DNA of 64,000 bases, from positions 1-64,000 of the IMG/VR virus record IMGVR_UViG_3300017987_000001; one strand, written 5' to 3'. The notes below the pieces were generated by a model. That model saw only the letters and a program-made list of their open reading frames with translations, was not told the DNA's origin and made no database searches. Of the stretch, positions 5,069 to 48,263 are shown piece by piece (the stretch's first letter is position 1; every line of letters begins with the position of its first letter). The stretch is from a virus. The translations under genes were made by a program, and so were the position numbers.

Positions 5069-5851
5069 CTAGCACGATACGGAATTCAGCAGGTACGTGA
5101 GCAACGCCTTCGCGTACAGCCTCCGGCGGCCCTTGACCAGCTCCTTGGTGGCATCGTCGGCGTCGTCGGGGATGACCAGCATCGCCCGGCCGACCCACGG
5201 GAAGCCGCTGAGGACCATGTTGTTGCCGCGCACGATCCCGCTCATGCGTCCGGTGAGCCCGTCGCCGCGCCAGATGAACGCGACCTTGATGCCGCTCGGC
5301 TCCGGCACGTCGACGCCGTTCAGCAGCTCGAACGCGATGCTCGACGGTGCCGACATCGTCGACGCTGACACCGGAAGCACCTCGCGGATGAAGCAGTCGA
5401 CCCACGCCGTGAACTTCTTGGTGCTGGTGTAGACGTCTTCATGGTTGTTCCGGTTGATGTGGTTGGCCGCCGCCGTCATGTACTTGGTGACGATCTCGTC
5501 GAACGCCGCCAGCACGCCCTCGTTGATCGACTGCGAGAGTTCCGCGCTGTAATTCTCGTGGAGGCGCTCGTACATCCATTCGTTCGCTTGGGCCATCTTC
5601 ACGGCGCCCTCGCCGAACTTCTCGATGAGGAGCTTATCGACCTCGGCGCGAATGATCTTCTTGCGCGTACCGGCCGGAAGGAGATTCTGCGCCGTGTGAT
5701 TCAGCGCACCGATCCCTTCGTTGATCTGCTCCTCGATCGCGTCCAAGGTCGCGGTTGCCGGATCGATCGGCGGCGCCTCGGTCGTCTGATTCTGTGGCTG
5801 TTCCTGTTCCGTCTCGGTGCCGCTCGGAGCGGCGAATCCTGCTTCTGCCAT
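5069..5851 (-). CDS. Unknown protein with N-terminal GFAAP motif
   Basis: 260 residues. The first 35 are disordered and rich in Gln, Glu, Thr and Pro, and begin with AEAGFAAP, one of nine copies of a short motif found in this window. The rest looks globular, with a helical middle and a beta-rich C-terminal third containing WRGDGLTGR. It lies between the two nuclease genes, so a role in recombination or replication is possible but unproven. I recognise no family. Confidence 0.82.
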   Translation of the reverse strand: MAEAGFAAPSGTETEQEQPQNQTTEAPPIDPATATLDAIEEQINEGIGALNHTAQNLLPAGTRKKIIRAEVDKLLIEKFGEGAVKMAQANEWMYERLHENYSAELSQSINEGVLAAFDEIVTKYMTAAANHINRNNHEDVYTSTKKFTAWVDCFIREVLPVSASTMSAPSSIAFELLNGVDVPEPSGIKVAFIWRGDGLTGRMSGIVRGNNMVLSGFPWVGRAMLVIPDDADDATKELVKGRRRLYAKALLTYLLNSVSC

Positions 5852-6143: not shown

Positions 6144-7193
6144 TCAGCTTGTGATACCCATCTCGTTCTTGACTGCTGCAAGTTCCTCCGCTGCGTCTGC
6201 CGCGCGAAGGGTTCGCAGAAGGAACGAGTACAGCTCCGGTGTCTCTTCACGATTCACCACGCGCCCAAGGCACTGCTCAAGCCCAACCTCGAACTCCGTG
6301 GGTTTGTCGAGCTTGGCATCATCCCTCAGTACGGGCAGGTCGCGGATGCGCAAGTGCACGCTTCGCTCTCGACATGCGTCGCCAAGCCGCTTGTATGCCT
6401 CCGGCACGTCCGGGGACACGCGCGCGAGCATCAACGAATCGACAGCCAGCTCGGTTTCGATCAGCTCGACGGTGGCGTCGAGCGTCTCGGGACTATCGAT
6501 GGTCATGATGCTCGTAGGCCGCCCGTGAATCTTGTGCCGCTTGACGGTCATCTTCTTGCCCGAGTGGTGAACGGAGATGAACGACTTCTGCGGATTCTCC
6601 TTCATCGAGCGAATGTGCGTCGATCCGGAATAGTGGCACTTACCCACGGACGCTTCCACGTGGAGATCGCCAAGCAAAGCGACCTTCACGAAGTCCGGGA
6701 TCCACTCCTCGTCCAGATTCCAAGCACCTTCGATCGACATCACCGACTTCAGCGCCTGATGAAGCATGAGAATGTCGCACTCCTTCAGGGCTTCGAGCTT
6801 CTGCTTCACGTCGTCGGCATGCGTATTGTCGAAGCCGTAGAGCAGGTGATCCTTCCCGTCGAAGTTGAGCGTGATCGGATCGTACCCATCGATCGAACTG
6901 ACCTCCGGCACCAGCTCGAACCACGGAGGGCTGCTGCGATCGTGCTGTCCTTGAATCGCGAGCTTCCGTGTCTTCTTCGGGAGCCGTCCGATCTCGTCCT
7001 TGAATGTCCTAACCGACAAGCTATCCGGCTTGCTCTTGTCGAAGATATCGCCGCCGAGCAGGAGCGCCTCTGCCTTGTTCTTCAGGCAGTAATCGATGAT
7101 CTGATGAAGCGCGTTATACGCGTCGCCGCGCATGTCCGGCAGCTCTGCCCAGATCGTCGGCGACAGGTGGAGGTCGGCAGCGAAGGCGATCAT
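6144..7193 (-). CDS. SbcD/Mre11-like (T4 gp47-like) nuclease
   Basis: A 349-residue calcineurin-like metallophosphoesterase expected to be the nuclease partner of the SbcC-like protein. Metal-site motifs in order: DLH (residues 7-9), GGDIFD (47-52), GQHD (82-85), LHQ near 139 and GDLH near 172. The third motif is normally GNHD, so an Asn is replaced by Gln. Its start overlaps the stop of 7190-7471 as ATGA. Confidence 0.94.
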   Translation of the reverse strand: MIAFAADLHLSPTIWAELPDMRGDAYNALHQIIDYCLKNKAEALLLGGDIFDKSKPDSLSVRTFKDEIGRLPKKTRKLAIQGQHDRSSPPWFELVPEVSSIDGYDPITLNFDGKDHLLYGFDNTHADDVKQKLEALKECDILMLHQALKSVMSIEGAWNLDEEWIPDFVKVALLGDLHVEASVGKCHYSGSTHIRSMKENPQKSFISVHHSGKKMTVKRHKIHGRPTSIMTIDSPETLDATVELIETELAVDSLMLARVSPDVPEAYKRLGDACRERSVHLRIRDLPVLRDDAKLDKPTEFEVGLEQCLGRVVNREETPELYSFLLRTLRAADAAEELAAVKNEMGITS

Positions 7194-7471
7194 TTCTGAA
7201 ATCCCGACTGATCGTTCTTGGCTACCTCCTCAGCCCGTACTGCGCCGATGGCGTGTCCCACCATGACGCTGTGTGCGTGAATGATGAACGCCGCACACTT
7301 GTCATTGTCTGCCCCGACGGACATGTTCTTCAAGTACGTCTCGACCTCGCGCTTCACCTCGCTGAGGCAGGAGGCGCAGAACTCCAACTCCTCCACATGC
7401 TTGATGTCCTTCTCGTCGTCGAGCAACCTCCCGCAGGAGTCGCACCGCGTAACGGTGACCTTCACCTTCAA
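7190..7471 (-). CDS. Small zinc-finger protein, TTG start
   Basis: About 93 residues. It has CDSC near residue 10 and CASC about 22 residues later, forming a four-Cys zinc site, then a helical C-terminal half. The TTG start has AAAGGAG 5 nt upstream; an ATG 42 nt further up lacks a site and would overlap the preceding gene. The function is unknown. Confidence 0.75.
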   Translation of the reverse strand: MKVKVTVTRCDSCGRLLDDEKDIKHVEELEFCASCLSEVKREVETYLKNMSVGADNDKCAAFIIHAHSVMVGHAIGAVRAEEVAKNDQSGFQK

Positions 7472-7482
7472 TACATCTCCTT

Positions 7483-7686
7483 TCAGTCCAACTTCGCCAG
7501 TCGCCGTCGGCATGTGTCACATACCGCCATCTCGTCGGTGTCAGAGACCTCGACCAGCTCGTAGCAGTATTCACACATGACCCGAATACGGAAGCGACTT
7601 CGTTTTCTCGGTCGCATTTCAAGGGGAATCCGGAACCGACGGCTGGTTTTCAGTTCCGGATCCATCTCTTTCGTGAAGACCGCCAT
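7483..7686 (-). CDS. Basic protein with C-terminal zinc ribbon
   Basis: 67 residues. A strongly basic middle (RPRKRSRFRIR) is followed by CEYC and CDTC, a treble-clef or zinc-ribbon spacing. The basic segment suggests nucleic-acid binding. The stop precedes the TTG-start gene by 11 bases; the start overlaps the ParB-like gene's stop by one base. Confidence 0.78.
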   Translation of the reverse strand: MAVFTKEMDPELKTSRRFRIPLEMRPRKRSRFRIRVMCEYCYELVEVSDTDEMAVCDTCRRRLAKLD

Positions 7687-8612
7687 CAGCGAGCCACCAG
7701 CCTCTGGGTTCGCTTACCCGGCGGCGTCTTCACAAGCTTGCGTCCGGCGCGGAAGGCATTCCAGCAGCCGATGCACACGTTGTACATGACTTCGGCTGGA
7801 ACCTGCGTCTTGTTGTTCGAGGCTCCGCGAGAGCCGAGAACCGTTCGATGCAGGTAGTCGGAGAGCACCTTCGCCGGATCGCTCTTGCTGCTGAACAATC
7901 CCTCGATGAGGGTGTTCCAGAACTCGATAGCTTTAGTCTTTGCCGCCTTGACCGTCTCCATCATTGCGGCAACGACCGGGCTGCGCCGCAGGTGATATGC
8001 CTGCTGCGCGTTCAGGTACGCGAGCAACTCCGCCACGGCTCGCCCGATCTCGGGGAACTCGAAGCGCAACGCTTCGTGGACCTTGTCGGCCTTCACACGT
8101 TCGTTGTGGAACTTCCAGTACTTCGCGCCTGCGCAGAGGTACTGGATGACCGACTTCTTGATTCCTTCGTACTCGGGCGTGTCGAACAGCGCCATCTTCG
8201 CGAGATGCGCCGCCGTCCGCACACGGTTCCGGTCGAAGTTCTTGTACAGCTGGCGATACTCGTCCTCGGTGTCGACCCGATACTTCACCACTCGGATCGA
8301 TGGTTGGTACTTCGGGATTTCGAGGTACGACCTCGCCCAGCTGATGTGTTGACCGTTCAGCTTCCGTGCCTTCTTGTCCCATCCACACACGGCGATGGAC
8401 ATAACGGCCTGAGCGGCAAGGAACTGTCCGGTCTCCATGGCGCGCACGAGCGTTCCGACATGCTCGTCGCTGACCTCACGCTCGATGTCACGGAACTCTT
8501 CCAGCGACAGGTAGTAGTCCGCAAGCATCTTGGTGAATGGCTTCCGTTTATCCGATACGATTCGGCTTATCCAATCGATCGGAGCGCCCGGAGCCGCCTG
8601 CTTCTTCGCCAA
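7686..8612 (-). CDS. ParB-fold-like protein
   Basis: 308 residues. The segment around residues 84-130, with NGQH, a strand-rich stretch and NFDRNRVRT, resembles the NGQHR box and following region of ParB/Srx-fold proteins seen in phages and plasmids. The remainder is helical. It could be a DNA-binding or nucleotide-hydrolysing protein of that superfamily; assignment rests on short motifs only. The start is a TTG overlapping no other gene. Confidence 0.6.
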   Translation of the reverse strand: MAKKQAAPGAPIDWISRIVSDKRKPFTKMLADYYLSLEEFRDIEREVSDEHVGTLVRAMETGQFLAAQAVMSIAVCGWDKKARKLNGQHISWARSYLEIPKYQPSIRVVKYRVDTEDEYRQLYKNFDRNRVRTAAHLAKMALFDTPEYEGIKKSVIQYLCAGAKYWKFHNERVKADKVHEALRFEFPEIGRAVAELLAYLNAQQAYHLRRSPVVAAMMETVKAAKTKAIEFWNTLIEGLFSSKSDPAKVLSDYLHRTVLGSRGASNNKTQVPAEVMYNVCIGCWNAFRAGRKLVKTPPGKRTQRLVAR

Positions 8613-28762: not shown

Positions 28763-29425
28763 CTACATCGTCGTGGTGCTGAGACCACACTGGGGGCATG
28801 TCGCTTCAGATGGTAACCTCGGAGCCTGACAGTGAGCGCACTTGATGACCTTGACCTTCACTTCCTCAAGCGTGTCACCTGCGTCAGGCAGTAACTGGAA
28901 CAGTTCTTGGTCGGGTACGAGGATGGGCTTCAGCGCCTTCCGCGCGTTGCCGGACAACTGATCGGCCTTCGCGTGCAACGGGTTGCTGTTGCGCGGAACC
29001 CACCGCCAGCGGATTCGGTACCCGCGCGTCTCGTACCAATCCACGACGGTCCACAAGTCCAAGTTGGCCTTACGTCCGTATTCGCGGGAGCCGCACTTGA
29101 TCGTGTACTCCGAGTCGGAGAAGACCCAGACACGGTACGGCGGATCCTTCACGGATTCGCTGAGCAACTTGTAGTAGTGGTAGCTGAGCGCCTCAGTATA
29201 CGCCGTCAGCTCCATCCTGTTCACGGTTGAGTGCGACCGTCCGCCAATGACGACTGCACGCGCGTGAAGCCGTCTATCGACTAGGAACGCTGAATACCCT
29301 CCCGCGCCCTTCCAGTCCAGCCCACTGCCGTCTCCGAAGAGCAGGAGATCCCACTGTGAGAGCGGGATCTCCTGACTCTTCAGGAAAGCGGCAAGCGGCA
29401 TCTCAGGCGAGGTTTTCTGAGTCAT
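28763..29425 (-). CDS. Ribonuclease HI with C-terminal zinc ribbon
   Basis: 220 residues. The catalytic set is D32 (FGDGSG), E72 (NRMELTAYTEAL), D104 (FSDSEYTI) and D155 (KADQLSG), typical of RNase HI cleaving RNA in RNA-DNA hybrids, for example primers. Residues about 190-215 add a zinc ribbon (CAHC, CPQC). The start overlaps the E1 gene's stop by 23 bases, so both are likely on one transcript. Confidence 0.92.
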   Translation of the reverse strand: MTQKTSPEMPLAAFLKSQEIPLSQWDLLLFGDGSGLDWKGAGGYSAFLVDRRLHARAVVIGGRSHSTVNRMELTAYTEALSYHYYKLLSESVKDPPYRVWVFSDSEYTIKCGSREYGRKANLDLWTVVDWYETRGYRIRWRWVPRNSNPLHAKADQLSGNARKALKPILVPDQELFQLLPDAGDTLEEVKVKVIKCAHCQAPRLPSEATCPQCGLSTTTM

Positions 29426-30170
29426 GCAGTACGTCGCCGGACAGGATATTGAGCAGCGTATCCCGATTCGGGCGCATCCCTCTCAGCCATCTGGTGAATG
29501 TGCCGACCACCAGTCCTGCGGCAATGTTCGCGCAGTAGATGGTCGACTTCGCGGTACAGGACTGCTGCAGCCCCTCGCCCTCACTGAAGAGCGTGCGCTC
29601 GTAGTAGTCCCGCTCGTCCGTGGCACTCACGGCGAGCACGCGCGCGATTTCGGAAGCCATGCGCGAGTCGATGAACAGGGCGTTGCTGTTGCCCTTGAAC
29701 TTCTCCGCGTACGCCTCCCATATTTCCTTCCGAACCTCCATCTTGTCAACAGCGGATATCACGACGAACCGCTGCGGCTCGGGCGGATCCTCTCCGTCCT
29801 CGACCGGCTCCGGCTCCTCGATCTTGATGTTCGAGATCATCTCGGGCCGGAACTTGTTCTTGGAGGTCTTGAGCGTGACCGCGCTGTTGATCTGGAGACA
29901 CGCCTCGGCCACGGCTTCGACCTTCAGCTTGCCCAGATCGGACTCGATGAATCCCTGAACGGCGAGGTTCTCGACGTCCACGGTGTCGAAGTCGACGATG
30001 CGGATGTTCTCGACACCGATGTGTGCCAGCTGCTTTGCGACGAGCGAGCCGATTGCGCCAACGCCGATCAGCGTGACGCTGGCCGACGCGACCTTCTCCG
30101 GCTTGATGATGTCGCGGTGCCGAATCGCGCGATTGCTAAGGTCCGGCGAATCCGGCGGCGTCGTCGTCAT
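29403..30170 (-). CDS. E1/ThiF-like ubiquitin-activating adenylyltransferase
   Basis: About 255 residues. A Rossmann-type nucleotide site GVGAIGS (36-42), acidic IVDFDTVDVENL (58-69) and SAVDK (139-143) match the ThiF/MoeB/E1 fold, which adenylates the C-terminus of a ubiquitin-like protein. Candidate thioester cysteines are C205 and C213 in LQQSCTAKSTIYCANIAAG. The two CxxC pairs of MoeB are absent. It is adjacent to JAB, E2 and Ubl genes. The ATG at 30170 is preferred; a TTG at 30269 would give a disordered extension over the JAB frame. Confidence 0.9.
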   Translation of the reverse strand: MTTTPPDSPDLSNRAIRHRDIIKPEKVASASVTLIGVGAIGSLVAKQLAHIGVENIRIVDFDTVDVENLAVQGFIESDLGKLKVEAVAEACLQINSAVTLKTSKNKFRPEMISNIKIEEPEPVEDGEDPPEPQRFVVISAVDKMEVRKEIWEAYAEKFKGNSNALFIDSRMASEIARVLAVSATDERDYYERTLFSEGEGLQQSCTAKSTIYCANIAAGLVVGTFTRWLRGMRPNRDTLLNILSGDVLHDSENLA

Positions 30171-31917
30171 CTCCGAGTTCGACGAGTCCTCCGGTTCTGA
30201 CGGTGTACTCTGCTGTAGCGTGCTCTCCAGCAGTGACTGCGTCTCCTCCATCGTCTGCTCTTGCGGCAAGCTCCGCCTCCACTTCCTTGCGAACTTCGCT
30301 GATGGTGATTACGTCAGTGTCGCGGCGGGCGAGCGCGGCGTCCGTTACGTCCGCTTTCTTCTCGTCTGCCGTCTTGGTGGCGTCATCGGGTTCCGCGAAA
30401 CCGGGCGCCCCGTTCGACCCCGAGCTGCATGTTGCTGCGGATACGGCTCCCGTCGCGCCGGTTTCGGCCTTCTTCTCGGACTTGTTCGCGTCCTTCGGAT
30501 TGCCCAGACACAGTTCGAGGTCTGCGGCTTCCTCGTCCTCGCGCAGGTCGATGATGTGCCCCACATTGGTGAGACGGGTGATCTTCAGCGGAGCGTACTC
30601 GCCATCGACGAATCGCCATGTGATCTCGCCGTATGCGACCGGCGATTCGGTGGCGATATCGCACAGGCTGTCGATGTCGTCCTCTTCCGAGGCATACACG
30701 TCGATGCCTTCGGCGTACTCGTACCACCCGAAGTCGGTGATGACGATGGTGCCGTTCTTGTAGCGCTCGATCTGCCAGATCTGCTCTACGCTTTCGCTGA
30801 CGAGCTTCTGCGCAGGATCATCTTCACCAGACGCGAGACGATGGCGCCCACCCCAGTCAGGAATCTCCTCCTGATCGAAGATGGAGCGGGAAGCGACGCG
30901 ACGGCGGGCGGACGAAAAGGACGAATCCGAGTTCGCCGGTGTCTTGGTCTCGAATCCCTCCGTCCCCTCATTGTCGCCACGATTCCACTGGTTGCGCCAC
31001 TCGCGCCAGTCCTGCTCGTCCATGTAGTGGCCGTAGTGCCTGCCACCGTAGTTGTCGTAGCAGCCGCCGTAGCTTCCGCCGCCGTGAACCGTGACGGACG
31101 AGCCGGACGTGTACGAGCGCGTGAGGATGTTCGCCTGATACTCCTCCTCCCACGCCTCGTAGTCCTCCTGCGTCACGCCGAGGAACGGCGGGTTGATGTC
31201 CAGCTGCACCTTCAGATCGGCCTCTCGACCTCCGCCGAAGACTTCGCCGACAATACCCTGCTCTTGGATGTTGTAGCGGAACTTGGCCTTGAACTCCCCG
31301 CCCTTCGCGAGGATGGCCATGATCGACCAGTCGCTCCCACCGAACACGTCGCGGAACGTAGCCACGTCCGTGCTGCTGGGACTGGCCGAGTTGCCCGGAT
31401 GCGTGTGCAACCAGATCCGGAGCACCTCCGACGGGTGCCATCCGACCTTGACCATGTCGTCGAGGTACTTGTTCAGCGCATCGTCGTCGAACTCGACCGA
31501 CGCGGCGCTCGCCTTCTGCTTGATGGTCAGGAAGTCGGCCACGTACAGAAGCTCGCTGCGATAGCTGAGGCCGAAACCGCTGATCTCGGTGGATCCCCGG
31601 TCCCTGAACCACTGCAGCTTCGCGTATGCTCGCGGACCGAGACGCAATGCGCCCGGAACGTTCGGGCGCGTGGCAACCTCCTTGCGCTCCGGCGTCTTCC
31701 ACGAGCTGATGGCCGAGTGCTGGCTCGCTGCGGAGCCACTGCTTCCACGCGACGTCTGCGCTGCGGCAGACGGTGTCGACGCGGACGAATTCGCCGGTAC
31801 GCTTGACCGCCCCTGATTGGGGTGGCCAAGCGTCGGCGTGTTACCGGCAAATCCTGCGGACGGGTTACTGATGATATTCTCCTCTCGTCGCCTTCTTCGA
31901 CGCCTTCGCCTACCCAT
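30136..31917 (-). CDS. JAB/JAMM metalloprotease (deubiquitinase-like)
   Basis: 593 residues. A disordered Ser-rich N-terminus with GFAGN, then a JAB domain (about 90-300). Metal motif: E110, HTH at 170-172, and S180..D183, a perfect HxHx7SxxD. JAB enzymes cut ubiquitin-like tails or isopeptide bonds. A second unknown domain, an acidic linker with GFAEP and a C-terminus AGFAGP follow. The ATG at 31917 gives an odd Arg8 run; an AGGAG 6 nt before an in-frame ATC may mark the true start. Lies between the E1 and E2 genes. Confidence 0.92.
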   Translation of the reverse strand: MGRRRRRRRRREENIISNPSAGFAGNTPTLGHPNQGRSSVPANSSASTPSAAAQTSRGSSGSAASQHSAISSWKTPERKEVATRPNVPGALRLGPRAYAKLQWFRDRGSTEISGFGLSYRSELLYVADFLTIKQKASAASVEFDDDALNKYLDDMVKVGWHPSEVLRIWLHTHPGNSASPSSTDVATFRDVFGGSDWSIMAILAKGGEFKAKFRYNIQEQGIVGEVFGGGREADLKVQLDINPPFLGVTQEDYEAWEEEYQANILTRSYTSGSSVTVHGGGSYGGCYDNYGGRHYGHYMDEQDWREWRNQWNRGDNEGTEGFETKTPANSDSSFSSARRRVASRSIFDQEEIPDWGGRHRLASGEDDPAQKLVSESVEQIWQIERYKNGTIVITDFGWYEYAEGIDVYASEEDDIDSLCDIATESPVAYGEITWRFVDGEYAPLKITRLTNVGHIIDLREDEEAADLELCLGNPKDANKSEKKAETGATGAVSAATCSSGSNGAPGFAEPDDATKTADEKKADVTDAALARRDTDVITISEVRKEVEAELAARADDGGDAVTAGEHATAEYTVRTGGLVELGDDDDAAGFAGP

Positions 31918-33649
31918 TGTTGTCGGCCGGAGGCCCGAAGCCTGTTCCTGCGTTTGCGCCCGGATCGATCGCGCCGATGTACTGCGGTGCTTCGCTGCTC
32001 GGCAGCTCTTCATAGCGACCGTTTGCGCCCAGCCGTCGCAGCATATGACCGTACGCACACTGGCGCGTGGGGTCTTCGCAGCACGGCTCGTTGTCGTTGA
32101 CGGCGTTTTCGAGACAGCCAGCACAGAAGTACACGTCGCTGCAGTCGTACATCTCGTTTACGTCGAACGACTCACTGCACGTCGCGCACATGCGCGTGCC
32201 GGTTGGTGCTGCGATCAGTGTTTCTACGTTGAAGTTCAGCGGGTTGACCTCATCCTGCGGGATCGTCGGGATCGAGTCGATCGTGATTCCCCGTCGCGGT
32301 GGGATGTTCACGTAGTTCGGGTGATTGGAATCCTCACCCCGCCCGGTCTCGGGCTGCTCGGGCGGCGCGAAACCGGTACCGGCTTCGTTGCGCGCCTGAT
32401 TCTGCTGCGCCCGCTGCGTGATCTCGCGATGCCATGGATGACGCGTGGCGGCAAGCCAGTTGCCAAGCGGACAGTACTGCGAGAAGTCTGCGCAGCATGT
32501 TCTGCGATCGTCCGCACGCCGCTGCACACACGCCGTGCAGCGCCATACGCTACGACACTGAATCGCATCATGTGCGTTCACGCTCGTGCCGCACTCCCCG
32601 CATTCTATGGATTCGCGAATTGCACAACCGGTCGTGCCGAACCCGTCACAGTCCTCGCAGCCCTCGTTGCGCATATCTTCGTCGGTGCGGCAGTTGCCAC
32701 AGATCGACACGTCGCCGATATCGCAGTAGTGCGAACAGTCGCGACACACCGCGTTCTCGCAGACCGCGCACGTGTACATGTCGTCCGGGTAGCCGCGATG
32801 GCCACAAACGATACACGTGTGCGTGCGCCGGTGATTTGCAGGCGGGGGCGCCGTGCCCACATTTGGGTTACGCCGCTTGAACTCCTTCGCGAAGTACTCC
32901 AGTCGCAGGAACGGCGACCTGTGGTTGTACGTTCGAAGTACCTGATCGATGAGGATGAAGAAGGTGAACAGGTCGCCTCGCTTCAGTGCATCGCCGATCT
33001 GCAGCTCGCCGTCGCCCTCGCACATCGACGCGTCCCGCACGTGCGGGTGACAGATCGTTGAGTGATCGGGAGCCAATAGTGGGGTCTCGGCGTAGACGCG
33101 GTACGGGCGCACCACGCCACGCAAGACCTGATTCATGTTCAGCTTGACCATGTACCGGCCGAACTCGACATTGAGTTGATTAACCTCACAGTAGAGTGCA
33201 ACCGGACGGGTGAGCACGACGAGGTACCAGCCGTCGATCGAACGCTCCATCCTCCAACCGTCGAAATCGCCGGTCAGCCGCTGAAGCATTCGCGTCATGC
33301 TGGTCTTTGTGATCGGAGTCAGCTGCTTATCGTCCTTGTTGTCCGTCTTTGTGATCGTCCGACGACATGACTCGACCTGATTCTGCAGGAACGCGTGATG
33401 ATTGCGCAGAAGCGTCAACCAGTCACGGATCTCGTCGAGAAGCACGCACGCCGAGTTGACCTCACCTTTCCCGGTGTAGAGAAAATCTGCGCGGTCGCAG
33501 ATCGCCATGTACTCTTGGCTCTCCTCCACGAGGGACTGAATCATAACCTTGAGGTCTTCTGGGCGACGGGCGTTCCTGCGGCGCAGCACATCCTGCAGAA
33601 TTTCCGCAGCTTGTGCCGTGTCCGTCAGTGTCTCCATCGTTTCAGACAA
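31910..33649 (-). CDS. E2-like conjugating enzyme fused to RING-like zinc modules
   Basis: 579 residues. Helical N-terminus; an E2-type fold at about 120-255 with YRVYAETP, HPHV (201-204) and the candidate catalytic Cys210 in ASMCEGDG, followed by a helix ending YNHRSPF, the usual E2 layout. Residues 279-341 form a RING-like cysteine/histidine array, and further zinc modules lie near 350-374 and 475-500. It ends GTGFGPPADNNG. TTG start with GGAGG 4 nt upstream. A fused E2-E3-like enzyme would transfer the Ubl from the E1. Confidence 0.85.
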   Translation of the reverse strand: MSETMETLTDTAQAAEILQDVLRRRNARRPEDLKVMIQSLVEESQEYMAICDRADFLYTGKGEVNSACVLLDEIRDWLTLLRNHHAFLQNQVESCRRTITKTDNKDDKQLTPITKTSMTRMLQRLTGDFDGWRMERSIDGWYLVVLTRPVALYCEVNQLNVEFGRYMVKLNMNQVLRGVVRPYRVYAETPLLAPDHSTICHPHVRDASMCEGDGELQIGDALKRGDLFTFFILIDQVLRTYNHRSPFLRLEYFAKEFKRRNPNVGTAPPPANHRRTHTCIVCGHRGYPDDMYTCAVCENAVCRDCSHYCDIGDVSICGNCRTDEDMRNEGCEDCDGFGTTGCAIRESIECGECGTSVNAHDAIQCRSVWRCTACVQRRADDRRTCCADFSQYCPLGNWLAATRHPWHREITQRAQQNQARNEAGTGFAPPEQPETGRGEDSNHPNYVNIPPRRGITIDSIPTIPQDEVNPLNFNVETLIAAPTGTRMCATCSESFDVNEMYDCSDVYFCAGCLENAVNDNEPCCEDPTRQCAYGHMLRRLGANGRYEELPSSEAPQYIGAIDPGANAGTGFGPPADNNG

Positions 33650-33675
33650 GGTGCCTCCAAAAAAAGAAGAGAAGA

Positions 33676-33705
33676 GCGCCCGCCCGGCCGAAGCCGAGCG
33701 GGCGC
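33676..33705 (-). terminator. Rho-independent terminator of the Ubl gene
   Basis: On the minus strand a GC-rich 13-bp stem (GCGCCCGC outer, TCGGC/GCCGG inner with one G-U pair) is capped by a UUCG tetraloop and followed by a pyrimidine run ending in seven T. It stands between the Ubl gene and the E2 gene's ribosome site, so the Ubl should be made from its own short transcript. Confidence 0.88.
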
Positions 33706-33737
33706 CCTGTACACATCAGACGACGTGCGTCAGACGA

Positions 33738-34046
33738 CTAACCCGCGAAGCCGGGGAGGTCCGCTCCCGCGACCTTGTGCGGGCTGATGGTGACCCTGTC
33801 ACCGTCCTGCAGGACGAAGTCGGCGGGCATCCGGCCGCCCGTGAACCGCTCGCAGCGGATCACGTACTTGGCCGGATCCTGCGTGCCCATGTGGCGCTCC
33901 CAGAGCGTCTTGACGGTGGAGCCTGCGGGCAGCGAGACGAAGTCCGCGAAGCCCGTGTCGGAGGTGGACGTCAGGAAGATGCGCATCTCGCCTTCGGGAG
34001 CCGGGGCCATCTCGGGGGCGGCGGGGGTCTCGTTCTGATCGGTCAC
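33738..34046 (-). CDS. Ubiquitin-like beta-grasp protein
   Basis: 102 residues. About 20 disordered Pro/Ala-rich residues, then a beta-grasp pattern: MRIFLTSTS, VSLPAGSTVKTLWERHMG (strand-helix), and a final VLQDGDRVTISPHKVAG, which resembles the end of MoaD/ThiS/ubiquitin folds. The C-terminus is LPGFAG, not GG. The E1, E2 and JAB genes next to it make a conjugated modifier the best reading. The GTG at 34046 follows AAAGG at 7-nt spacing. Flanked by a palindrome upstream and its own terminator. Confidence 0.82.
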   Translation of the reverse strand: MTDQNETPAAPEMAPAPEGEMRIFLTSTSDTGFADFVSLPAGSTVKTLWERHMGTQDPAKYVIRCERFTGGRMPADFVLQDGDRVTISPHKVAGADLPGFAG

Positions 34047-34082
34047 GATGAAACCTTTCGCGAAAGTAAGGGTGAATGATAC

Positions 34083-34100
34083 GAGGAGCGCGCGCTCCTC
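34083..34100. promoter_or_regulatory. Perfect 18-bp palindrome upstream of the Ubl gene
   Basis: GAGGAGCGC and its exact complement sit in the 58-bp gap between the VWA gene's stop and the Ubl start. There is no T-run. It could be an operator, a transcript-stabilising hairpin or a weak terminator separating VWA and Ubl expression. Confidence 0.45.
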
Positions 34101-34104
34101 ACGG

Positions 34105-35502
34105 TTACGGCATAAACGGGGAATTGAGGCGGTCCTTCTTGACGATAATCGTCTTACCCCACGGAACGATGCTCCGTTCAAACTCGTCCGTGGTCATACA
34201 GTCCTCGGGCAACAACCACAGTGTGGGGAAGCCGTCTGGACTCTTGTCGGGACGGGACGCGGTATACGTGTCCCACCATGACTGGCCGCGCTCTTTCAGG
34301 ATGTTTGCCTTGTACGTGGCGATGGTACCGTAGCCGTCCGTGTAACCGACTATGTAGTGTGGCCTCGGGTGCATTTGTCGAATATGCATGAGGGCACTAC
34401 TGTAGTCGGTCCCACCGCGTCCAAAGAATCGCTCAAGTGGTTCGCCCGGGCGATATGGGTGAACCTTCGCGACACGCGCGTCACTCTGTACGACAGTGAT
34501 CGTCGCGCCCCGCGCACACATGCCCCGAAGTTCGGGGTCAACGAGCTTGAGTTCTTCTGCTCCCATGGACCCGCTGGTATCGATCAAGAATGCTACGCGC
34601 AATCCGCCGGTCCACGTATAGCCGCGATACGCTGGATGGCGCCGCGACGGTCGTCTACGTGTTTCGGTCCGGATCTGATGACTGTGCTGGGTTTCCATAG
34701 CGCGCAAGTGTCTGTACCACGGAACTACCGCGTCCCGCTTGGACGCCTTCATGAGTTGCTCGTGATCAGCACCGAGAGTGCCGCGCCATTTCTTGTGCAC
34801 CTCATCGCCGAACATCTTGAGTGCTTCGGACACCGACGTGATGATGTTCCTCGTGCGTTCGTCTGCGAACGTACCGTCGCTCTCACTGAGGCGGAGCACC
34901 TCACTCATGAGATACGGTACGTTCTTGCCCGGGAATCCATCCGACTGACCTGCAGTGCCAGTCGACAAGGCGGAGTTGGGTGACTGGAATTTCGGAAGCT
35001 TCAGCTTGCCTTCATTGACGAGCGTCTGGATGACTTCTGCATACTGCATTGACGTCATGCCCATCGGCACGCCCTGAAGGTGCTGTAATTGAAAACCTAC
35101 CAACCCCTCTTGCGACAAGTGCGGACTGGGATGCTTCTGGTTGACGTAGACGTCCATCGCTGCGGTTGCGATCTCTGGACCGAATCGATCAATCAGGAAT
35201 CTCCCATAGCTGGTGAAGTGCCCCTCAATGATGTGTGCTGCCTGATGTTCGAGGACTTCCAGCCGTGCTTCGAAGCTCAGCTCCTTCATAATTGGCCAGT
35301 ACAGCGTGATCTGCAATTGGCCATCGACGACGTCACAGCCCGCGTGAATCGGATAGGATCCACTGTAGCCGATCGGTGCCGATGTAGCGACGATATTGAC
35401 GTTGTGCAGGACGTAGCACAGGTCATGCCTCTTCGTCGTTACGAGATAGTAGAGGAGTTCGCTGAGCCAGTTACCGTCACCGCTGTGCTGCTCTGCGTCC
35501 AC
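34105..35502 (-). CDS. DUF2201-like metallopeptidase-fold protein with VWA domain
   Basis: 465 residues. The N-terminal half resembles the DUF2201 putative metallopeptidase region, but the zinc motif reads HQAAH (86-90) instead of HExxH, so catalysis may be lost. The C-terminal VWA domain has the MIDAS motifs DTSGS (308-312), GGTDYSS near 366 and YTDG. Such proteins pair with MoxR ATPases, as here with the gene just upstream. The GTG overlaps the last base of the MoxR stop. The partner and substrate are unknown; the Ubl system is the obvious candidate. Confidence 0.86.
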   Translation of the reverse strand: MDAEQHSGDGNWLSELLYYLVTTKRHDLCYVLHNVNIVATSAPIGYSGSYPIHAGCDVVDGQLQITLYWPIMKELSFEARLEVLEHQAAHIIEGHFTSYGRFLIDRFGPEIATAAMDVYVNQKHPSPHLSQEGLVGFQLQHLQGVPMGMTSMQYAEVIQTLVNEGKLKLPKFQSPNSALSTGTAGQSDGFPGKNVPYLMSEVLRLSESDGTFADERTRNIITSVSEALKMFGDEVHKKWRGTLGADHEQLMKASKRDAVVPWYRHLRAMETQHSHQIRTETRRRPSRRHPAYRGYTWTGGLRVAFLIDTSGSMGAEELKLVDPELRGMCARGATITVVQSDARVAKVHPYRPGEPLERFFGRGGTDYSSALMHIRQMHPRPHYIVGYTDGYGTIATYKANILKERGQSWWDTYTASRPDKSPDGFPTLWLLPEDCMTTDEFERSIVPWGKTIIVKKDRLNSPFMP

Positions 35503-36734
35503 TAGCCGAGTACCTTCTCGAACTTCTTGACGAAGTCGTGGTACACTTTGCCCATCTGCGCGACGACATCCGATTTCTTGAAGACGTCCATGATCGGACT
35601 GCGCACGAATCTGGGCGCGCGATACACCGCATCGCACAACGACGATACGATGTCCGCAGCGTTGTTCAGCATCAGCACCTGACAGAAGCCGGTGAATCGC
35701 TCTCCCGCTTCCGGGTACTGGGTCGTGAACGTGTTGTCGGACTGTGCGATCACGCGAATCACATCGAGCTGCGTCGCACCAATGTATCCGCGTGCCTTGG
35801 TCCCACCACTGAACCAGCGCTGAACACGCTCTAGTTGCGCCGCGAACTGCTCCACGCTACTTCCGAGCAGCTCACGACCGAGAATAGGCACCTTGTCCGG
35901 CTGGTACCCACTCTGAAGGAACGTCAGCAACGGTGGCGAGATCGTATCGTCAATGACCGCTCGTGCGCTCTTGACGATGTTCGCGGCCGATTCGCCAGCG
36001 GCCCGTTGCGCCTCGACATGCACCGCCAACCCCATCCAACCACGCGGTGTGAGCTGGTTGAAGAAGCTGTCGTGGTTGAGGATGAACTGGTAGACCGTCG
36101 GCTTCATGATGATCGACCAGACGGCCAGCAGTTCAGCCTTCTCCGGTACGACGATGTACGGGTGCAGTCGTTCTTCGATCGAGTGGCACAGCTCGGCCTC
36201 AACCGTCGTGTAGTCGGCGGTCAGTGGGTTGCCGGTTGCCACGAGGATGCAGTTGGGGCTTACCTCGCGGTTATTGAACTTGGCCTTTCCCGCCGTCGAG
36301 TCGACGATCTGTCGCAGCTGGTTGAGCACCTTCTTGCTGGCCGTGGGAAGCTCGCTGATCTCCAGCAGCAGCGCTTCCTGTTCGAAGATCGGAAGCATCG
36401 CAGCTTCCATGTTCTCGGTGACCTTCTTGGTGGTCCCGTCCGGATTCGTGACAATCTTGCCCGCTGGGTCGGGAACGCCAAGGTTGTCATCGAAGAGTTG
36501 TGCGTCGGGATCCCAGCGACAGTACGGTATGCCGAGGTCGTCGGCGATGCACGTACACGTTGTCGACTTACCGTCTCCCGACTCACTGAGCATGATCGGG
36601 ATCTTGTTCACCCGTTCGCGCTTCGGCTGGCTCAGCAGGTACTTCGCGTGATTCGTGATCGCTCGGCGAGCGAACCCGAGGCTCACTTGGTACTTGTTCT
36701 GCTGATTCCAGACCGTCGTGAGCAGCCTGCCCAT
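35502..36734 (-). CDS. MoxR-type AAA+ ATPase
   Basis: 410 residues. Walker A SESGDGKS (50-57); Walker B region ALLLEISELP (about 121-130) with Glu where Asp is usual; sensor 1 ATGNPL. The arrangement with a VWA gene directly downstream is the MoxR-VWA pattern, in which the ATPase remodels or assembles targets chosen by the VWA protein. AGGAG sits 6 nt before the ATG. Its first 150 bases overlap the preceding gene. Confidence 0.88.
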   Translation of the reverse strand: MGRLLTTVWNQQNKYQVSLGFARRAITNHAKYLLSQPKRERVNKIPIMLSESGDGKSTTCTCIADDLGIPYCRWDPDAQLFDDNLGVPDPAGKIVTNPDGTTKKVTENMEAAMLPIFEQEALLLEISELPTASKKVLNQLRQIVDSTAGKAKFNNREVSPNCILVATGNPLTADYTTVEAELCHSIEERLHPYIVVPEKAELLAVWSIIMKPTVYQFILNHDSFFNQLTPRGWMGLAVHVEAQRAAGESAANIVKSARAVIDDTISPPLLTFLQSGYQPDKVPILGRELLGSSVEQFAAQLERVQRWFSGGTKARGYIGATQLDVIRVIAQSDNTFTTQYPEAGERFTGFCQVLMLNNAADIVSSLCDAVYRAPRFVRSPIMDVFKKSDVVAQMGKVYHDFVKKFEKVLG

Positions 36735-37453: not shown

Positions 37454-37503
37454 GATTCTGACCCTCCAATTGTACATTATCGATGCACCGAAGGGAAGGC
37501 GTG

Positions 37504-39303
37504 ATGGTAATCACTGAAGCACAGACGCCGCAAGCGCCGAAGTCTGTGGCGGAAGCGATCACCTCGCTTGCCCATCAGTACACGGAGCACACAGTCGACA
37601 CCTTGGTGCCACTGTTGCCCCTTCTGACCTTAAAGGGCGAGCCGTACACGCTCAGTCACCACGCGCCGTTCGAGCCGCTCTTCGATTTGAGCTTGCCCAA
37701 GCGGACGACGTGGAAGACCGGACGGCAGGTCTCGAAGACGACAGGGCTATCGTCGCAGTCGGTCCTTCACTGCGCGATTCAGCCCTACTTCGCCACCCTT
37801 TTCGTGGCTCCACGCTTTGAGCAGATCCGCCGCGTCTCGGCGAACTACGTGAAGCCGTTCATTGAGAACAGCATACTGGACAAACTGATCGCGGGGAAAT
37901 CCGTCGAACGGTCTGTCCTTCAGAAGACCTTCCGCAACGAGGCGCGGATGTACTTCAGCTTTGCGTTCCTCGACGTCGACCGCATTCGTGGTCTGTCCGT
38001 CGACTGCGTGAAGTACGACGAGATCCAAGATATCGATACTGACTTCATCCCGATTATCAAGGAGTGTATGTCCGCGTCGCGCTATGGAATCGAAATGTTC
38101 TTCGGCACGCCCAAGACTCTCGACAACACCATTCAGGTGCTGTGGGAGCGCTCATCGCAGGCCGAATGGGTCACACGATGTCAGGCGTGCAACCACGAGA
38201 ATATTCCGGGGCTTGAGTATCACCTTCTCAAGATGATCGGCCCGCGCGGGCCGGTCTGTGCCAAATGCGGACGTGACATCCAGCCTAGGACTGGGCGCTG
38301 GATACACGCTAACCCCGATGAGCTTCCGTTGAACGTCGGGTACCATGTTCCCCAGATCATCATGCCGATGCACTATGAGGATCTGGACGAACCGTGGAAG
38401 CTACAGGAACATCCTACCGAGAAGTGGTTGGATCTGCTCGGTAAGCGGGAAGGCCGCAACAACTACACTGAGGCCAAGTTCCTGAACGAGGTTTTGGGCG
38501 AGTCATGTGATGTCGGCACCAAACTGGTTACGCTCACCGACATCAAACGCGTCGCCACGTTGAACAAGAACACCGAGAAAGACGCACTTCGCAGCATCCA
38601 TAACTACCTGTACCGGGCCATGGGCGTTGACTGGGGCGGCGGCGGTGAGGACGAAATCTCCTTCACTGTCGTCACCGTCGTCGGCATGAACCCACAGAGC
38701 GGTAAGATGGAGTGCATCTTCGCGAAACGACTACACTTGGGCTACTCCCATATCGAGGAAGCACAGGAGGTGATGCGCCTGTTCAAGGCGTTCCAGTGCC
38801 ACTACTTCTGCCACGATTACGGAGGTTCGGGATCTGTCCGTGAGGCCCTGATGATTCAATCCGGGTTCCCCATAGAGAAGATCCTGCCCTTCATGTACGT
38901 TCGCGCGACCGTGAACAAGATGGTCGAAGCCAAGCGTCCCGGCGGCTTCAACCAACGCGCCTACTACACGGTCGACAAGGCGCGATCGCTGGTCCTGCAG
39001 GCTCAGTGCATCAAGACCCAAGCCATTCAGCTGTTCAAATACGACTCTGAATCGCAGGAAATCCTACACGACCTACTCGCTCTCATTGAGGCCAAGAGCG
39101 AGCGCCCCGGTGCCGCAGACGTATTCCTCATCACGCGCAATGCGAAGATGCCCGACGACTTCGCACACGCTCTGAATTTCGCCTGCATCGGCATCTGGCA
39201 CGTCCACAAAGCGTATCCAGACCTGACAAAGCTCACCCAAATCAAGCTTACGCCCGAGCAGCGGAACTTCGCTGACCCGGTCGTACAGGACTGGAACGAG
39301 TAG
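37504..39303 (+). CDS. terL: Terminase large subunit (GpA-like)
   Basis: 599 residues. The ATPase and nuclease that packages DNA into proheads. P-loop variant KTGRQVSKTT near residue 70, Walker B VKYDEIQD, a zinc module (CQAC, CAKC near 230-265), and nuclease-domain acidic motifs VDWGGG, HDYGGSG and a late DD. The zinc module and layout fit the GpA-like class. The ATG at 37504 follows GGAAGG; an ATG seven codons earlier lacks a site. It is the only plus-strand gene in its neighbourhood. Confidence 0.92.
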   Translation: MVITEAQTPQAPKSVAEAITSLAHQYTEHTVDTLVPLLPLLTLKGEPYTLSHHAPFEPLFDLSLPKRTTWKTGRQVSKTTGLSSQSVLHCAIQPYFATLFVAPRFEQIRRVSANYVKPFIENSILDKLIAGKSVERSVLQKTFRNEARMYFSFAFLDVDRIRGLSVDCVKYDEIQDIDTDFIPIIKECMSASRYGIEMFFGTPKTLDNTIQVLWERSSQAEWVTRCQACNHENIPGLEYHLLKMIGPRGPVCAKCGRDIQPRTGRWIHANPDELPLNVGYHVPQIIMPMHYEDLDEPWKLQEHPTEKWLDLLGKREGRNNYTEAKFLNEVLGESCDVGTKLVTLTDIKRVATLNKNTEKDALRSIHNYLYRAMGVDWGGGGEDEISFTVVTVVGMNPQSGKMECIFAKRLHLGYSHIEEAQEVMRLFKAFQCHYFCHDYGGSGSVREALMIQSGFPIEKILPFMYVRATVNKMVEAKRPGGFNQRAYYTVDKARSLVLQAQCIKTQAIQLFKYDSESQEILHDLLALIEAKSERPGAADVFLITRNAKMPDDFAHALNFACIGIWHVHKAYPDLTKLTQIKLTPEQRNFADPVVQDWNE

Positions 39304-46469: not shown

Positions 46470-48137
46470 CTACATTTTAGCCGTCAGCTTGTCCAGATCA
46501 ATGGCCTTGATCTGATCGAGCCAGTAATCGGCTGCACGTCCGGCGCTCCAGTCACCGATGTACGTGAAGACCTGATCGGAGAAGCCGCCGATCTGGTACA
46601 CGTCCGGATGATTCTCCGGCATCTGGTTGCTGGTGTTGGCGTACACGTTAATGTTCACCAACTGCGCCTTCGGGTTGCGCTTCTTGTAAGCCGCCCACGC
46701 CGTGGCCATCCCAGTGGCTCGGGAGCCATAGATGGATCCGAACTCGGCGTACGGCGTCTCGACCCACGCCTCGTTGTCCGAGACGTAGATCACCAGATTG
46801 CCCTTGTGCTTCTGGGCGTTCAGGTGCTTCAGCGCGACGGAGCAGTCCGTGCCTCCACCATGGAGCGCCAACTTGCGCGCGTTGGTCATGACCGAATCGC
46901 GCGGGTTGGCGGCAACCCGATGCACGCGCGTGTCGAACGGTACGATCGTCGTGGCGTCCGGGTTCTTGCGCAGCAGCGACGCTGCGACAAGCCCGGCCAC
47001 ATCCACGGCGAGCACCTTCGACGTTGCGCCTCCGCGCATGCCCGTGACAGGCCACGTCATCGATCCGCTCGTGTCAATGCAGACCGCGACGTTACCTTCG
47101 ATCGCCGGAACGTTCTCGCACGCGACTTCCATCGCGTCCTGTAGGGCGTTCGTGATCTTGGTCGGCGCCGAGCCTTCGTTCATCTTGAAGGCCATGAGGA
47201 TCTGGTACGGGAAGACCCGCGCCTTCCGGATCACGTCCGGGTCGCGCAGCTTCGCCGCGATCAGATCCACCATCGCAGGGTCGTTGTAGACCCCGTGACG
47301 GAGCGCCGTCTGCAGGTTCATCCTGCAGAAGTGCCAGCCGCCCTTCTTGAACAGTTCGCCCCATTCCGCCGTCGTCAGCGGGGAGGGGAGGCCGTCGAGC
47401 CGCTGGAACGGAACGGCCGGTACTTCCATGGCCAGTCCGCTCTCGGGCATCTTCGCACCGTTCGCAACCACCTGCTTCATGGCCTTGAACGCTTCGAACT
47501 GCTGAACCAGCTCGGGCAGCTGACTCAGATACTTCGACACCGGATCCCCGTCCTTCTTCAGGAAGTACCTGTAGATGGCCGAGTGCTGCGGCGTCGCGGG
47601 CTTCGGGTGCATCATCGTGATGACGTCCTTCATGGACGGCTTCCCGATGTCCCATCTGAAGAGCATCTCCGGGGACGTCCGGTCGAGCATCTGCTGGAGC
47701 AGACGTCGCGGACGGTGACCGATGTTGTCGCGACCGGTCACGTTGCTCCAGAGGATCTCGAAGAACCTCAGGAACATCTTCCCATTGTCGATGATCTTCG
47801 GGAACGCCTTCTCCAGATGGCGCATTCCCTCATTTCCGAGAGTCGTGAGGTAGCACGCCAGCAACGCTGGCATGTCCTTCATGTACCCTCGCTGACGGGC
47901 GAAGACTGCGATCTTCGCCACTAGTTCAGCTGAGACCTTCGGGAGCAATCCCACGATGGCCTTCAGCTGGTCCTCGGCTGAGCTGTAGTACGCATCACCG
48001 AACGTGCACGTCGCAGCCATCTGCGCCAGTGCCAGTTCGGGCGACAATGCGTACGCAGCTCCCCCAGCCTCGTTGGCTGCGGTTGCCGCCGGTGCAGCGA
48101 ACCCACCTCGCTGCGATCGAAAGACTCGGTTACTCAT
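46470..48137 (-). CDS. Ro60/TROVE-domain RNA-binding protein
   Basis: 555 residues. TROVE HEAT-like repeats span about 31-340 (MAATCTFGDAYYSS, then ARQRGYMKDMPALLACYL). A C-terminal VWA domain has DTSGSM (355-360), FDTRV and GGGTDCSVAL. Ro proteins bind misfolded RNA and Y RNAs and help exonucleases degrade structured RNA. The N-terminus carries GGFAAP, the motif shared with the Ubl-locus proteins. It has its own promoter and terminator. GAGGAGGGC precedes the ATG at 48137. Confidence 0.92.
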   Translation of the reverse strand: MSNRVFRSQRGGFAAPAATAANEAGGAAYALSPELALAQMAATCTFGDAYYSSAEDQLKAIVGLLPKVSAELVAKIAVFARQRGYMKDMPALLACYLTTLGNEGMRHLEKAFPKIIDNGKMFLRFFEILWSNVTGRDNIGHRPRRLLQQMLDRTSPEMLFRWDIGKPSMKDVITMMHPKPATPQHSAIYRYFLKKDGDPVSKYLSQLPELVQQFEAFKAMKQVVANGAKMPESGLAMEVPAVPFQRLDGLPSPLTTAEWGELFKKGGWHFCRMNLQTALRHGVYNDPAMVDLIAAKLRDPDVIRKARVFPYQILMAFKMNEGSAPTKITNALQDAMEVACENVPAIEGNVAVCIDTSGSMTWPVTGMRGGATSKVLAVDVAGLVAASLLRKNPDATTIVPFDTRVHRVAANPRDSVMTNARKLALHGGGTDCSVALKHLNAQKHKGNLVIYVSDNEAWVETPYAEFGSIYGSRATGMATAWAAYKKRNPKAQLVNINVYANTSNQMPENHPDVYQIGGFSDQVFTYIGDWSAGRAADYWLDQIKAIDLDKLTAKM

Positions 48138-48263
48138 TCTGCCCTCCTCTCGAATAGCAGACAAAGCACGCGCTCGAAATGAGCGCATGGCGAACCGGGT
48201 CCAACATATAGTAACGCGATATGGGCCTGTTTTAACCCCGGCCTAGGGCGTTCCACGGGTGTC

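Follow-up and report, generated by a model that had tools for sequence, protein, structure and literature searches.

A ubiquitin-like conjugation gene set shared by phages of several lineages and Planctomycetota

Does a phage that carries genes for an E1, an E2, a JAB peptidase and a ubiquitin-like protein (Ubl) possess a conjugation pathway of its own, and to what end would it be used? In bacteria, Ubl conjugation has been described as a form of anti-phage immunity, and it also occurs on plasmids; the Bil, Bub, PRTRC and CBASS systems are cellular or plasmid-borne. The locus that raises the question, carried by a giant bacterial virus, lies in the first 64,000 nucleotides (the window) of a 207,857-base IMG/VR virus record (IMGVR_UViG_3300017987_000001), in which a sequence-only reading had recognized a phage-borne Ubl pathway encoded by six adjacent genes.

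Genome and gene arrangement

The genome was identified as that of a phage by its matches to the terminase large subunit TerL (37483-39303, plus strand; phrog_675, 1e-54), to RNA polymerase beta-subunit families, and to a baseplate wedge as well as a tail fibre; the gene set is thus situated in the phage itself, as had been stated. All six genes named in the sequence-only reading were found side by side on the minus strand; the range assigned to them (28763-36734) additionally includes the gene of an RNase H with C-terminal zinc ribbon (28763-29425, minus strand), which is syntenic in the related loci L013 and L028. In the direction of transcription, the locus comprises MoxR (36734-35502), VWA (35502-34105), Ubl (34046-33738), E2 (33649-31910), JAB (31917-30136), E1 (30269-29403) and RNase H (29425-28763); the four-gene Ubl cassette (29403-34046, minus strand, order Ubl-E2-JAB-E1) is flanked by MoxR and VWA upstream and RNase H downstream, and adjoins TerL rather than replication genes in the window. 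The JAB start, corrected to ATG 31917, is located within the end of the E2 gene (ATGGGTAG), E1 overlaps with JAB, and RNase H with the end of E1, which suggests translational coupling. The interval between Ubl and E2 contains a terminator-like hairpin (33673-33708, minus strand; 16-bp stem and T-rich tail, z=-5.5), also present in the relative L013 (z=-6.3), that may permit a Ubl output in excess over the enzymes.

Elsewhere in the window, six tRNA genes are clustered at 327-2155, and the product of 46470-48188 combines a vWA-like DTSGS motif with a match to the RNA-binding protein family phrog_850 (1.7e-35); it presumably resembles the Ro60/TROVE proteins. The proteins of this phage that match RNA polymerase beta-subunit families are encoded at 6628-8490 and 14427-19925 of L005.

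Active sites and folds of the cassette proteins

The E1/ThiF-type adenylyltransferase (29403-30269, minus strand; 288 aa, start TTG 30269 or ATG 30251) possesses the predicted GVGAIGS and DFD motifs and matched PF00899 with E=1.7e-26; a ten-sequence profile retrieved UBA6, UBA5 and UBA1 (5e-23 to 1e-18). In the E1 alignment (A3), GxGxxG and the cysteine of CTAKSTIYCAN are both invariant, the latter being the candidate thioester residue. The assignment as E1 is firm, and so is that of the JAB/JAMM peptidase (30136-31917, minus strand; 593 aa): The perfect HxHx7SxxD motif reported previously is present (HTHPGNSASPSSTD) and recurs in 110 of 113 sequences, Glu-111, His-171, His-173, Ser-181 and Asp-184 (full-length numbering) are invariant, and the match of the single sequence to Prok-JAB (1.5e-4), weak on its own, is complemented by that of the profile to Rpn11-like JAMM peptidases (7e-11). 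The N-terminus of the window JAB reads MGRRRRRRRRR; a similar arginine run is found in L013.

The Ubl (33738-34046, minus strand; 102 aa, GTG start) was modeled by AlphaFold as a beta-beta-alpha-beta-beta structure (pLDDT 76), i.e. as the beta-grasp fold on which the earlier reading had been staked in advance. The best PDB match of the model in Foldseek was Caldiarchaeum ubiquitin (E=8.5e-4); the 51-row profile matched SAMP2 (4.3e-4), MoaD (0.004) and Urm1 (0.34), and both the assignment and the fold are regarded as firm. Gly-32 and Gly-94 (codon 33767-33765) are invariant across the 51 rows. In nearly all rows, P-x-K-[IV]-[ED]-G-A or V-K-G-G closes the core, which is followed either by the stop or by up to approximately 20 unrelated residues that differ in length and sequence; in the window, the conserved core terminates with KVAG-A and is extended by the tail DLPGFAG. 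A constant end with a variable tail is the pattern expected from JAB-dependent maturation; the mature terminus would be either glycine or alanine. Searched alone, neither the Ubl nor the E2 matched any family significantly in Pfam, NCBIfam, PHROGs or PADLOC.

The E2-like enzyme (31910-33649, minus strand; 579 aa, TTG start after GGAGG) has a Cys-rich C-terminal region. Both parts of the active-site motif predicted for it, HPHV and a potential catalytic cysteine, are present (HPHVRDASMCEGDG; pattern HPHV-x6-CxG): HPH corresponds to residues 201-203 (33049-33041), and Cys-210 (33022-33020) is the candidate catalytic residue. The eukaryotic HPN...C site has its counterpart in the motif HPH-[VILM]-x-C-x-G; HxH...CxG is found in 93 of 102 sequences, L015 reads HPHINIDGSICLG, and L053 retains HPN. 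A nine-row profile of the core yielded 35 matches in the PDB up to E=10, all of them E2s (best single E-value 0.37), and hhalign comparison of two phage E2 profiles with three canonical human E2s, whose sequences were entered by hand, gave p values of 9e-5 and 2.7e-4 versus 0.26 and 0.15 for reversed E2 controls. In Foldseek searches with the model of the catalytic core (residues 100-275, 32825-33352, minus strand; pLDDT 80.9), the top five matches were all UFC1, at a non-significant level (TM 0.27, E 0.03); matches in the viral structure library included a crAss-like virus protein (E 0.01, probability 0.98) and other phage proteins. As none of the E2 matches of the nine-row profile was returned by a 63-row profile (A5), the assignment relies on the motif, the hhalign comparison with reversed controls and the ranking of the fold matches. 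A search of 50,697 phage records yielded no match to the window E2, nor did a pattern search of viral_contigs, as is expected for fast-evolving E2s. The central domain is hence E2-like by profile and by the ranking of its fold matches, as proposed beforehand; according to sequence and model, the E2 identity is well supported, less so than those of E1, JAB and Ubl and short of proof, with moderate support from the fold.

The E2 had furthermore been designated as a RING protein. Nine CxxC motifs follow the active site in the window, and at least three follow the E2 cysteine in 85 of 102 sequences (25 of 42 viral ones); the region is Cys-rich, no RING profile matched, and the designation is unproven. 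No dedicated E3 was identified.

Distribution and relation to known systems

Profiles based on nine phage cassettes recovered Ubl, E2 and JAB genes upstream of E1 in loci that had been fetched by E1 alone (43 viral loci from IMG/VR and 80 genome loci). The four-gene set is complete at 91 loci (40 of 43 IMG/VR, 51 of 80 genome loci), and many of the incomplete loci are interrupted by contig ends; the order Ubl-E2-JAB-E1 is preserved in 88 of the 91, the exceptions being L071 (extra E2 copies) as well as L096 and L123 (overlapping ORF calls). The genome loci are nearly all from Planctomycetota. Divergent sets of the same order occur in the named phages crAss001 (gp79-gp76), cr85, cr111, Dulem virus 41 and Flavobacterium phage Fpv1, while Xanthomonas phage PhiXhv-12 carries Ubl-like, E2-like and E1 genes and no adjacent JAB gene. 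In the E1 tree, phages are placed on several branches; the window phage forms one clade with L013 and L028, beside a mixed group of phages and Planctomycetota (97/98). The kit, with its gene order unchanged, is thus common to Planctomycetota and to several phage lineages that are not related to one another. This suggests that phages employ a tagging chemistry hitherto seen chiefly in bacterial defence against them; it also means that the Ubl system moves between mobile elements and Planctomycetota.

Three viral contigs (L040, L043 and L046) carry a second set of cassette genes within a few kb of the first; on a 138-kb viral contig (L044, 3117-6608), three successive E2-like matches precede a long JAB ORF and E1; and the JAB of Fpv1 (L022, 3707-5999) is apparently split, with an opposite-strand ORF (4223-4972) between the pieces. 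A conserved Ycf46/IetA-like AAA ATPase is encoded near the cassette at 27 loci (e.g. L139, 2830-4374); it recurs in Planctomycetota, where DUF1257 and DUF2997 proteins are encoded close to some of the cassettes, and the ATPase is also found at ten viral loci; it was sought in the phage of the window and not found. L140 is flanked by sulfatase-like genes (named, like the integrase-like genes mentioned below, from their sequence).

The general features of E1-E2-Ubl systems, i.e. the E1 loop and cysteine, the E2 fold and cysteine, and a beta-grasp Ubl with C-terminal glycine, are recognizable in the cassette from sequences and models. Among the known systems, the bacterial anti-phage system Bil (BilABCD) encodes a Ubl, an E2, a JAB-type peptidase and an E1 in that order. 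The likeness to the present cassette consists in this gene order; Bil is bacterial, whereas the cassette is carried by a phage, and no Bil-named PADLOC match was obtained for Ubl, E2 or JAB with a PADLOC version that may contain no Bil models. A second candidate was PRTRC, which we take to be identical with group 6d. In the latter, too, Ubl, E2, JAB and E1 are encoded by individual genes of mobile DNA (Iyer 2006, PMC1779556), and an E2 with CxG at the active site (L025) is a further common feature. However, the window E1 scored 27.3 bits against a PRTRC_ThiF cut-off of 144.75; the E2s of group 6d lack the active-site histidine (PMC1779556), whereas HPH is kept here; only L020 matched Prok-E2_D/PRTRC_B (E=0.19), and hhalign values against PRTRC_B were not significant (p 0.12 and 0.025). 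Membership in PRTRC was rejected, since the E1 is below the cut-off and the E2 is not of the Prok-E2_D/PRTRC_B type.

The sets of crAss001 and Fpv1 share with the cassette the gene order, an E2 with HSH...CxG, a JAB with HSH...SxxD and an E1 of the same family, whereas their E2 and Ubl are too divergent for direct profile matches. The annotation of their genes does not go beyond thiamine biosynthesis, metalloprotease or hypothetical protein, and no instance of their being named as a Ubl system was met in the literature searchable here. A phage-encoded combination described earlier is that of tail genes I and K of lambda and T1, which specify the Ubl TAPI and the JAB TAPK (PMC1779556): It resembles the present set in comprising Ubl and JAB, but is devoid of E1 and E2, is part of tail operons and has its JAB fused to NlpC/P60, whereas the window has E1 and E2 and no such fusion. 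Iyer 2006 documented E1/E2/JAB/Ubl operons in bacteria and, for phages, only this tail pair (PMC1779556). A comparable Ubl set is not mentioned in the 2021 survey of jumbo phages (PMC7824862), nor is ubiquitin in a 2026 jumbo-phage review; the limited literature consulted yielded no earlier account of a complete Ubl set in a phage, and the phage or Planctomycetota family may have been described earlier.

Possible use of the pathway by the phage

The chemistry of E1-E2-Ubl systems comprises trimming of the Ubl, adenylation, formation of the E1 and E2 thioesters, transfer to an amine and removal by a JAMM peptidase. As the residues for each step are conserved, a working pathway of Ubl conjugation and removal is the simplest reading of the cassette and, judged by its sequences, a highly probable one. 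The JAB would cut the variable Ubl tail after KVAG(A); E1 would adenylate the Ubl C-terminus and then hold the Ubl as thioester on the CTAKS cysteine, from where it would pass to Cys-210 of the E2; the Cys-rich E2 tail may recruit substrates, and the JAB would also take the tag off conjugates. Of the phage-borne pathway proposed at the outset, the complete gene set for maturation, activation, conjugation and removal is thus retained, and the RING and the MoxR-VWA pair as parts of the mechanism are not.

With respect to its purpose, we favor the view that host or phage proteins are modified at an early stage of infection, in support of the phage's own replication cycle, because the cassette is positioned among replication genes where the surroundings are readable (primase/UDG in crAss001; D5-like primase, SNF2 helicase and Pol A in L019; DNA and RNA ligases in L014) and is retained across divergent members of each phage lineage. 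This specific purpose is put forward tentatively, its chances being close to, and slightly below, even; a pathway used by the phage with a role in early infection is considered the best explanation overall, and a fairly probable one.

A serious, if rather unlikely, rival is that the cassette serves as a weapon against competitors, i.e. as a Bil-like system, borne by mobile elements, for tagging the virion proteins of phages that superinfect. Bil conjugates its Ubl in bacteria and thereby interferes with phage assembly, according to PMC12660748, which cites Hor 2024; a chromosomal cassette (L069, 2.86-Mb contig) has type I-C Cas3/Cas5 on one side and a predicted AAA/coiled-coil cluster on the other, L116 and L118 are flanked by integrase-like genes, and the doubled sets in some phages (L040, L043, L046) would likewise be in line with such a function. 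However, several phage lineages retain the cassette amid replication genes instead of in variable accessory spots, and the phage sets include no recognizable effector or sensor.

An aid to virion assembly, in which the Ubl set together with MoxR-VWA would remodel or mature structural proteins, is improbable. Both neighbors were correctly announced: The MoxR-type AAA+ ATPase (35502-36734, minus strand) contains SESGDGKS and matched the ATPase family phrog_1297 (4.4e-8), and the VWA protein with its N-terminal metallopeptidase-like region (34105-35502, minus strand; start probably GTG 35502, overlapping the MoxR stop) matched DUF2201 (1.2e-10). The seven-gene synteny from MoxR to RNase H in the window, L013 and L028 argues for the assembly role, as do the MoxR-vWA pairs of jumbo phages, for which a function in virion assembly has been proposed (PMC7824862), and the coupling of MoxR-vWA to Ubl conjugation in bacterial conflict systems of different architecture (PMC7159879). 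The jumbo-phage pairs consist of a MoxR ATPase and a vWA protein fused to an N-terminal metallopeptidase, as here (phrog_1314, 9e-25), but were reported without a Ubl set (PMC7824862), whereas the present pair adjoins one and has the Glu of HExxH replaced by Gln. The FtsH-type MoxR-vWA system with Ubl (Kaur 2020) features a Ubl-E2 fusion, a beta-propeller vWA and a separate RING, in contrast to the separate Ubl and E2 genes, the VWA with DUF2201 only and the absence of a RING match in the window. Homologues of MoxR-VWA beside the cassette are restricted to the window phage, L013 and L028; the flanks retrieved for the other 41 viral and the 80 genome loci contained none, and searches for MoxR relatives returned none. 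The pair as a core part of the cassette is rejected on this distribution, and its linkage, which had been taken to indicate a remodeling step, is suggestive for that lineage only.

Counter-defence, in which the phage enzymes or Ubl would jam or reverse a Bil-like or Planctomycetota Ubl system of the host, is hardly any likelier: JAB peptidases remove Ubls, Planctomycetota as possible hosts harbor homologous sets, and the multiple JAMM peptidases of Borg elements have been proposed for such a role (PMC12660748), but the JAB alone would suffice for it, and there would be no need for a full E1-E2-Ubl set whose active sites are conserved. A sulfur-carrier pathway for cofactor or tRNA modification, to which the resemblance of the Ubl to MoaD/ThiS and of the E1 to ThiF would be suited, is very improbable, since, on every contig of sufficient length, the E1 is found together with a JAMM peptidase and an E2 with conserved cysteine, and no sulfurtransferase or biosynthesis gene was recognized beside the window set.

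The presence of complete and conserved sets in phages means that protein tagging may be put to use by viruses for purposes of their own. That Ubl conjugation represents an old, retained core of the infection programme in jumbo, crAss-like and Flavobacterium phages and in small phages with a Pol A module, and tagging a general phage strategy beyond its use by bacteria in defence, is conceivable, though we incline to doubt it. The E1-E2-JAB-Ubl architecture, with an E2 site near the eukaryotic HPN motif, bears on the origin of eukaryotic ubiquitination. Since a divergent set is present in the cultured phage crAss001, the question is testable now.

Two features of the lineage bearing MoxR-VWA are added. 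The metallopeptidase-like HExxH motif of the VWA protein reads HQAAH in the window versus HETLH in L013 and L028; judged by this substitution, the window copy has probably lost peptidase activity. A motif GF[AG][GPAE], found only in this lineage, recurs in linkers and ends of the JAB (SAGFAGN, PGFAEP, AAGFAGP at the C-terminus), the E2 (GTGFAPP, GTGFGPP) and the Ubl tail (PGFAG at the C-terminus) between 30136 and 34046 of the window, with five occurrences counted (JAB N-terminus left out) versus about 0.2 expected by shuffling; it is also present at 5069-5851 and 46470-48188 and has copies in L013 and L028, and one guess is that it serves as a vWA docking peptide.
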